Shown here piece by piece: positions 50,800 to 53,433 of a stretch of DNA of 54,249 nt; the stretch's first letter is position 1, and each line of letters begins with the position of its first letter. Origin of the DNA: a virus; the IMG/VR virus record IMGVR_UViG_3300049846_001989, positions 1 through 54,249 of that record, one strand, 5' to 3'. The notes beneath the pieces are model-generated. The model was not told the origin of the DNA. It did not search any database and saw nothing but the letters and a program-made list of their open reading frames with translations. A program made the translations under genes and the position numbers.

Positions 50800-53433
50800 T
50801 CACGAGGTCATGTGGGTCAGGTTGCCACCCGACACCGTGTTGAGTATCTTATCACGCCACGATGGTACCTTGGGCGGGTCCGGAAGTCTAGGAGGCGCCG
50901 CATTTGTTATCAGCCTGATCGCCCAGGCCAGGGCATCCACGATGTCGTCGTGCCCGCCACCAGGGAACTGCAGCATCTCCTGTAGGAGTTCAGTCTTCCA
51001 CGGCGGGTCCATCGGGAACGATACTTTCCCCTGCTGCATCCGGCCCTGCAGGGGCCTGGCCCGGGCCACTTTATCCGTCAGCGGTTTCATCACTTCGATG
51101 GTAGGAAACACCTTCCGCTCATCCATGCGCTTGCGCAATAGCGGCTCAATTGACCGCCAGATCTGGCCGTCTTCGACCCCGACTACGTAGCGTCCACCGG
51201 ATATCCGCATGTAGCGCTCGGCTACCGTCACGATGGAATCCACGATCTCGAAACTGTCGCCCCTGAAGCGTACGAGATCCGCCACGTATGCGTGGTCATA
51301 GTCGTCGTGCGCGATCGTCGCCCCTACCGTGAAGTCGTTCTGCTGCTTCAAGCCAATCGCGAAGTCCCAGGCGGTGTAGTAATTCACGTGCTCGCCGAGA
51401 GGCGGCAAGTGCTCGAACCTGAAGTGCTCCTTCCTGAAGTACAGGCCTTCGTCGGGGACAGGCGCCTGCTGGTAGAGGGCAGACCATATCCGCGGCTGCA
51501 GGTTGGCCCGTATCTTGTGCAGGGCGTTTGTGGAGTAGCGCTCCTCGTGCAGCGCCTGGTCTGGACCGCGCAACAGGGTGTAGTGTTCCGGGGCGTCCTT
51601 GATCGGCTCTGCCGTCCGGATGATCTCATGCCTGGGCGACTCCTCGTCGCGGTACTCATACGTAGCACTGAGGGCCGGGTACAGCACCACCTCGAACTGG
51701 TCAGCCATCGGATCCAGGCGCATGCGCTGCTGCAGCCTGCCGGCGAGGTCGTCGTAGTTCCACCACGTCTCGATGAGCAGTATCCCGCCGCCAGGGGCGA
51801 CACGCGTCGAGGCTGTGGACTGGTACCACTCGTCGATCAGCTGGCGGCGGTCTGCGCTGTCCGCCTCCTCCATATTCTTAATTGGGTCGTCTATAATTAA
51901 GATATGGCAGCCCTTGCCAGTTAATCCGCCCCCCACGCCGGCAGCTACGAATCCGCCGCCCGCGGTCGTGGCCCAGGTCTCTGTGGCCTGTGACTCGGGG
52001 TCCAGCTGGGTGTCCGGAAAAATCGAGTGGTAGTAGGGATCGCGCAGCAAGCCCCGAACCTTGCGCGAGAAAATCATGGGAAGGTCCAGGTTGTACCCCG
52101 CATTGATTATCCCGTGCGTCGGATTGTGCCCCAGGTGCCAGGCGGGTAACCGGATCGAGGCCAGCTCGCTGTTATGCGTCGGGATCAGTGCCTCGCCAAC
52201 CAGGTACAGGCCGTCGGAGGAGACAACCTCGACGCACCGGGCGGAAAATGGCTCGACCCTGCGCACTGCGCGGACGGTCCGGTACTTGGGCCGGCCAGAC
52301 CGCGTCGGTATCTTGCGCTCCAGTGCGAGGCCCCCACCACTGCGGTCATAGGGGACCCAGCCGACCACCCAGTACCCGCCACCTCGGACCGTCGCACCAG
52401 ACCAGCGGATCTTTCTCTCGCGGCGGTCAGCCGGGCGGTACTGGATCGTCACCCGGTAGCCGAGGCTTCGGGCCAGGCGCCGGATATCGTAGGCCAGGCC
52501 GAGGACGTTCGTGCACACCCGGACCCTCCCGTCGCGCCTGCACAGTGACCCGTCTGTATCAACGATGCCGCCGAGCAGCTCGCGCCTGTGCTGTTCAGGC
52601 AGTGAGAAGTAGACTTCTGGTATGTGCTTACAGCCGAGTACGCCGAGTGCCCGCAGCTTGGCACGTATGTGCAAGAGGCACACATACTTGCAGCCCGTAT
52701 TCGCGTGTATTCGCACGGCACCGAATTCCTGGTAGGAAGGAAGACGTGCCAGGATCTTGTCCAGATCCTCGGGTGCGCCGCAAATCACCCCGGAGTCAGT
52801 CATCCCGTCACCGAGCCACACGCCCAGGGTGTAGGGGTCGACCGGGACCTTGGTATGCCGGCCGTGTAACGGGAAAGTCGGGGGGAGCAGCAGCTCGCCC
52901 CGGGTGCTCTTGGCCAGGATGTCGGGGAGCTCGCGGGTTTCGTAGGTGGCCCACTGCGCCCGGCGGCGATCGTAGACAGTCCACTCGTGGTTCTCGTGAC
53001 ACCTGATCTTCTCCCCGTCGGAGAACTCCACCTCACAGTCGCCCATGACCGGGTCGGCCACTTCCTTGATCACTACCGGTCGGCCACTCGGGTGGAAGAC
53101 CATGTCCCCGGGGAGCAGCTCGCCGTGGGTGATCCACCCTCGGGTCTGGGTGAAGACCGGGGTTTCGTCGTAGATGGCTTTTCCGTGGCGGGGAGGGACC
53201 AACAACATCAGCCGGGGGGACTTCTTCTCGGTCACCTCTCTGGAGAAGCGCTCGAGTCGAGCAGCCATGTCGTTGTGTACCCAACCCGCCTCGTACTCAG
53301 GGAGCGTGGACTTGGTAAAGTGGATTAGCCTGCGGCGGGACAGGATCCTCTTGGCCAGCTCTTGTTTTGCCAGGTCCCCCGGTGGGAGGGGTTGTTCCTG
53401 GTTCTCGTTATTGTCCGTTGGTGGTTGAGTCAT
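50800..53433 (-). CDS. Terminase large subunit with intein
   Basis: The 877-aa precursor contains the TerL packaging ATPase and nuclease, interrupted by a 336-aa intein. TerL features: P-P-R-H-G-K (80-85) joined after splicing to S-E (422-423) gives the Walker A; D-D near 515 is Walker B; the nuclease has D690 in A-W-D-F, and H-D-D near 828-830. Without splicing, the ATPase P-loop would be broken. TerL motors pump DNA into the procapsid and cut it. The first residue of the intein is Ala, not Cys or Ser. Confidence 0.94.
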   Translation of the reverse strand: MTQPPTDNNENQEQPLPPGDLAKQELAKRILSRRRLIHFTKSTLPEYEAGWVHNDMAARLERFSREVTEKKSPRLMLLVPPRHGKAIYDETPVFTQTRGWITHGELLPGDMVFHPSGRPVVIKEVADPVMGDCEVEFSDGEKIRCHENHEWTVYDRRRAQWATYETRELPDILAKSTRGELLLPPTFPLHGRHTKVPVDPYTLGVWLGDGMTDSGVICGAPEDLDKILARLPSYQEFGAVRIHANTGCKYVCLLHIRAKLRALGVLGCKHIPEVYFSLPEQHRRELLGGIVDTDGSLCRRDGRVRVCTNVLGLAYDIRRLARSLGYRVTIQYRPADRRERKIRWSGATVRGGGYWVVGWVPYDRSGGGLALERKIPTRSGRPKYRTVRAVRRVEPFSARCVEVVSSDGLYLVGEALIPTHNSELASIRLPAWHLGHNPTHGIINAGYNLDLPMIFSRKVRGLLRDPYYHSIFPDTQLDPESQATETWATTAGGGFVAAGVGGGLTGKGCHILIIDDPIKNMEEADSADRRQLIDEWYQSTASTRVAPGGGILLIETWWNYDDLAGRLQQRMRLDPMADQFEVVLYPALSATYEYRDEESPRHEIIRTAEPIKDAPEHYTLLRGPDQALHEERYSTNALHKIRANLQPRIWSALYQQAPVPDEGLYFRKEHFRFEHLPPLGEHVNYYTAWDFAIGLKQQNDFTVGATIAHDDYDHAYVADLVRFRGDSFEIVDSIVTVAERYMRISGGRYVVGVEDGQIWRSIEPLLRKRMDERKVFPTIEVMKPLTDKVARARPLQGRMQQGKVSFPMDPPWKTELLQEMLQFPGGGHDDIVDALAWAIRLITNAAPPRLPDPPKVPSWRDKILNTVSGGNLTHMTS
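52171..53178 (-). mobile_element. Class 3-type intein with LAGLIDADG homing endonuclease
   Basis: The 336-aa insertion (precursor residues 86-421) interrupts the TerL P-loop. It shows W151 (in block B, N-H-E-W), C400 (in block F, A-R-C-V-E-V) and T419 (in block G, P-T-H-N), the Trp-Cys-Thr set of class 3 inteins. It has no N-terminal nucleophile: its first residue is Ala. It ends in His-Asn, followed by Ser. L-G-V-W-L-G-D-G (203-210) and L-G-G-I-V-D-T-D-G (287-295) are the two DOD endonuclease motifs. Class 3 inteins are thought to have a phage origin. Splicing is predicted from these residues, not observed. Confidence 0.88.

Follow-up and report, generated by a model that had tools for sequence, protein, structure and literature searches.

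The large terminase subunit (TerL) gene of the virus analysed here is interrupted in its P-loop, almost certainly, by a complete class 3 intein whose endonuclease domain is intact, and which is expected to splice by the class 3 route and to spread by homing. This reading draws on the anatomy of the insert, the conservation of its residues, its predicted fold and signatures of mobility in its relatives. The virus record is a single contig of 54,249 bases, the whole of which is called the window below.

The PPRHGK|S motif of TerL is interrupted between Lys85 and Ser422 by a 336-amino-acid insert, read in a single open frame with the terminase on either side. Ser422 serves both as the P-loop Ser and as the predicted +1 nucleophile of the C-extein. 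Profile searches matched the flanking protein to Terminase_6C (E 9e-9) and, above the model cut-off, to TIGR01630. The extein has the Walker A (PPRHGK|S), Walker B (ILIIDD) and RNaseH-like nuclease of a TerL, and a P22-type portal gene adjoins it. When the insert was removed in silico, the resulting TerL could be aligned through the insertion point with relatives that lack the intein (61-66% identity). The initial annotation had placed the insert at 52171-53178, between the Lys and Ser of PPRHGKS, and this proved exact to the base (Table 1).

Table 1. Features of the interrupted TerL gene in the window, and P-loop inteins of related loci with Ser at F:4
Feature	Position	Strand	Evidence or remark
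TerL precursor ORF, 877 aa (541 aa once spliced)	50800-53433	-	Terminase_6C, TIGR01630
N-extein, residues 1-85, up to Walker A half LLVPPRHGK	53179-53433	-	Aligned with empty alleles including L036
Class 3 intein, 336 aa, A1-N336 (precursor A86-N421)	52171-53178	-	
Block B, His149-Glu150-Trp151 (His B:10, Trp B:12)	52981-52989	-	His and Trp invariant in 30 aligned inteins
LAGLIDADG motif 1, LGVWLGDGMTD	52795-52827	-	Alignment; LAGLIDADG fold in model
Endonuclease block D, KHIPE	52615-52629	-	Alignment
LAGLIDADG motif 2, ELLGGIVDTDGSL	52543-52581	-	Alignment; LAGLIDADG_3 match
Cys400, block F:4, predicted branch-point nucleophile	52234-52236	-	28/30 Cys, 2 Ser
Block G, Thr419-His420-Asn421 (Thr G:5, penultimate His, terminal Asn)	52171-52179	-	Invariant
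C-extein, Ser422 to end: Walker B and nuclease domain	50803-52170	-	
Empty second intein site before Walker B, GKG-C-HILIIDD (context TGKG)	51886-51918	-	Alignment with relatives
Ser at F:4, P-loop intein	L006:224-1231		Position 1 Leu
Ser at F:4, P-loop intein	L010:1157-2164		Position 1 Ser
Ser at F:4, P-loop intein	L131:2501-3490		Position 1 Leu
Ser at F:4, P-loop intein	L132:2498-3502		Position 1 Gln; identical to L133, L134

Class 3 inteins are defined, in three papers (PMC5050341, PMC7891396, PMC5222942), by the absence of an N-terminal nucleophile together with Trp at B:12, Cys at F:4 and Thr at G:5. The insert has Ala (A86) instead of Cys, Ser or Thr at position 1, and alignment over 30 inteins and with 6rix and 6bs8 showed the triplet to be complete (W66, C315 and T334 of the intein). 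These are Trp151, Cys400 and Thr419 of the precursor, so that the first residue and the triplet both lie as the initial annotation had them. H64 (B:10), H335, N336 and the Ser at +1 are also in place. Conservation of the triplet, on which that annotation had staked its claim, held among the aligned inteins: Trp and Thr were invariant, as were the His and the terminal His-Asn, and Cys occurred in 28 of 30. Position 1 varied (Ala, Gln, Leu, Asp, Ser and others), as expected of a position without a catalytic role. The catalytic triad of MchDnaB1 consists of His65, Cys124 and Thr143, with Trp67 in addition (PMC7664689), and the spacings of H65/W67 and C124/T143 are identical to the His-Trp and Cys-Thr spacings here. 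The top phmmer matches in the PDB were class 3 DnaB inteins, 6rix (3e-11) and 6bs8 (4.5e-11), aligned at both termini, so the resemblance is not due to chance. None of the curated Pfam and NCBIfam models for inteins and homing endonucleases reached its cut-off on the insert, so the case rests on the alignment, the PDB search and the structural model. The class 3 type passed every test that can be made on sequence, and at that level the insert is confirmed as a real, well-formed class 3 intein.

An AlphaFold2 model, built from the alignment of 30 natural sequences, had a mean pLDDT of 92.3 and a pTM of 0.90. Using Foldseek and VIA-align, the model matched PI-SceI over its whole length (324 residues aligned, Z 27.5), and its splicing domain superposed on MchDnaB1 (6rix; 128 residues, Z 20, rmsd 2.0 A) and on MsmDnaB. 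Among structures consisting of a splicing domain only, 6rix, 6riy and 6bs8 ranked top with Z about 20, as fits a class 3 fold. Both DOD endonuclease motifs that had been claimed (LGVWLGDG and LLGGIVDTDG) were found with their acidic residues, along with block D and a fold like that of PI-SceI and I-Tsp061I; LAGLIDADG_3 matched motif 2 with E 3e-4, slightly short of the curated cut-off. The endonuclease domain is intact, and the enzyme would be expected to cut.

The splicing chemistry at the window's intein we infer from the class 3 pathway of the cited papers, on which the following steps are modelled. After translation, His149 and Thr419 would activate Cys400, which would attack the Lys85-Ala86 bond to give the block F branched thioester. 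The acyl group of the N-extein would then pass on to Ser422, cyclisation of Asn421 would release the intein, and an O-N acyl shift would restore PPRHGKS. During co-infection, TerL genes without the intein would be cleaved by the endonuclease at the codons of the P-loop, and repair would copy the intein in. Unspliced TerL should not hydrolyse ATP, since its Walker A Lys and Ser lie 336 residues apart, and DNA packaging would depend on splicing because the unspliced P-loop has no contiguous GKS.

A C-extein query is blind to the presence of an intein in the P-loop; it retrieved 58 TerL loci. The comparison with empty P-loop alleles proposed in the initial annotation could thus be made: 38 of the 42 readable P-loops were empty and four were occupied, three of them by mini-inteins of 183-187 amino acids. 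The sister of the window's TerL (L036; support 100/99) has an empty P-loop. On the TerL tree, occupied, empty and mini-intein alleles were interspersed and required at least eight changes of state, a figure valid only for that hand-picked set, which includes loci found through their inteins. One occupied locus (L045) and two empty ones (L079 and L081) form a near-identical pair of states, with DNA identity of 93% upstream, 97.5% downstream and 96-97% further on. Judged from these sequences, this shows that the state changed within a narrow lineage, whether by gain or by loss. The intein does not occur a second time in the record of the window, and a DNA search of the phage collection returned no match. 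A genome scan with the single sequence gave six loci, including a P-loop intein of the same kind in Aggregatibacter (L123). The latter lies on a bacterial contig of Aggregatibacter kilianii (NZ_NRCN01000002.1), probably in a prophage, and its intein junctions read like those of L005.

A class 3 insert of this sort might be kept as a regulator, with redox- or metal-timed splicing limiting packaging to certain conditions, as reports on redox- and zinc-responsive splicing of mycobacterial DnaB inteins would suggest (PMC6195587, PMC7360933). We consider this improbable, since 38 of 42 P-loops of close TerL relatives do without the insert and its scattered occupancy on the TerL tree is that expected of a selfish element.

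The inteins closest to that of the window (L002, L003 and L004) are about 42-44% identical to it, and no closer relative of this exact intein was found. When these three were compared in pairs at four-fold sites, the inteins differed at 6-12% and the exteins at 38-46%. Intein dS was 0.07-0.17 against an extein dS of 0.73-1.16, a ratio of 4-12 fold, with the second intein of L003 left out of the comparison (Fisher p 2e-9, 2e-12 and 3e-16 for the difference in divergence). The excess divergence of the exteins was seen on both sides of the insertion. With so low a dS, the inteins appear much younger than their exteins, as homing predicts, and by this measure the intein type of the sister group moved recently. 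Their dN/dS of 0.12-0.21 points to purifying selection. The window's intein joined L002 and L004 in the intein tree (support 97/95), although the TerLs of these two belong to another part of the TerL tree; their grouping with the window was rejected by the TerL data (p 1e-45). The terminal branch leading to the window's intein is long (1.95-2.08 changes per column), and an intein tree constrained to unite the inteins found in the window's TerL family was not rejected at 5% (p-AU 0.068). The incongruence between the trees is therefore suggestive only, and the intein likely, though not provenly, entered the window's TerL lineage from outside. That the P-loop is a homing target, as initially proposed, is supported for the lineage by scattered occupancy, by the L045 and L079/L081 loci and by the dS of the sister group; this support comes from relatives and does not extend to the individual intein of the window, the nearest relative of which is only 43-44% identical to it.

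The long branch and the lack of a near relative for gauging selection would also suit a decayed intein that no longer splices, or one with a dead endonuclease that is only vertically inherited; an Arthrobacter class 3 intein is reported as a pseudogene in PMC3196547. We regard decay as very unlikely: every catalytic position is intact, as are block D and the two LAGLIDADG motifs, the frame is unbroken and the model of the fold is of high confidence. Moreover, the insert occupies an essential TerL motif and the spliced form matches intein-free relatives, so loss of splicing should kill the phage. We can practically dismiss a class 2-like intein with only the outward look of class 3, in which splicing would start directly from the +1 Ser, since, although it too would lack an N-terminal nucleophile, the entire triplet is present here, correctly spaced and conserved, the best PDB relatives are class 3, and published class 3 inteins do not initiate from Ser+1 (PMC5222942).

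Four of the P-loop inteins in Table 1 have Ser in place of Cys at F:4. All keep the Trp and Thr and have Thr at +1, and L010, L131 and L132 are 61-81% identical to L006. Their dN/dS was about 0.15-0.22, which is rough for the deeper pairs, where dS is high. As read from their sequences, they are a conserved sub-clade under purifying selection, possibly a Ser-branched variant of class 3. A further locus (L152, match 1366-2367) has GNSITV and Thr at +1 in another intein background; its relative L156 has Cys at that position (GNCITV). A census of 1701 class 3 inteins demanded Cys at F:4 (PMC7891396), so inteins with Ser there would be missed by it. The same paper reports that C124S abolished splicing of AceL NrdHF (PMC7891396). 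The Ser-for-Cys inteins would test whether class 3 splicing is able to proceed by way of an oxygen ester.

The window's TerL also has an empty second intein site, just before Walker B. The residue at this site is Cys in the window and Ala (rarely Gly) in nearly all empty relatives. In the phage L111/L035, which shares 87% DNA identity with the window across 9.3 kb, that Cys directly follows the last residue of an intein. There are two readings of the Cys at GKG|C: a relic of a lost intein, or a residue that arose first. Its standing as a unique scar was weakened by an empty allele (L099) that has Cys too, and no clear conversion tract was found in the codons 3' of the site. It is conceivable, if rather doubtful, that in this terminase family one TerL gene offers rotating intein sites (in the P-loop, immediately ahead of Walker B, behind GGGVLIIQ and at the nuclease HDD) and that the window's phage, with its class 3 intein at one of them, precisely lost another intein elsewhere, the +1 Cys of which is left as a fossil. 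Five loci (L003, L010, L023, L030 and L074) have two inteins per TerL; L023 apparently has three, judged from its reading frame. Cys-first inteins were also observed in the TerL nuclease domain of L089 and L092 (HDD|C...HN|C). They lie outside the ATPase domain, in contrast to the mycobacteriophage terminase inteins, all of which PMC5050341 places in that domain.

Inteins in the P-loop and class 3 inteins in TerL are already known, and the kind of arrangement is not new for phage terminases. According to PMC5050341, mycobacteriophage TerL inteins splice and cut empty alleles. Like the window's intein, TerL1-a of that study interrupts the P-loop of a phage TerL after the invariant Lys and before a hydroxyl residue, which is Thr in TerL1-a and Ser here; the terminase families also differ (TerL1 against TIGR01630/Terminase_6C). 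The same paper describes TerL1-c, -d and -e as class 3 inteins in phage TerL, of which a TerL1-c intein was shown to cut an empty allele; their sites are a helix of unknown function or Walker B, whereas the window's is the P-loop K|S. The TerL inteins of Bacteroides phage B124-14, Porphyromonas phage005b and Gordonia phage Sampson share the GK|S P-loop site, the missing N-terminal nucleophile, the triplet, the LAGLIDADG motifs and the THN|S end. Their terminases belong to families other than the window's, and the inserts are not annotated as inteins in their feature tables; the Sampson intein is about 36% identical to that of the window. The Msm DnaB-1 intein (6bs8), which splices (PMC5222942), also has a P-loop site (GVGK|S), and both it and MchDnaB1 (6rix) share the catalytic spacing and fold. 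These two are mini-inteins (chains of 139-146 amino acids) that lack an endonuclease and reside in a replicative helicase, in contrast to the full-length intein in TerL. PI-SceI (1ef0) similarly combines an intein with a two-motif LAGLIDADG endonuclease; it is larger than the window's intein and its host protein is a yeast ATPase. PI-SceI is a class 1 intein with an N-terminal Cys. We found no published work on inteins in the window's terminase lineage in the open-access literature. A phage lineage whose terminases have relatives in Pseudomonas phage KPP25 and Aeromonas phage phiA008 joins the known carriers of P-loop inteins, and the alleles of a single terminase that it offers in nature (occupied, empty and with a mini-intein) provide material for tests of homing and of splicing-dependent packaging.
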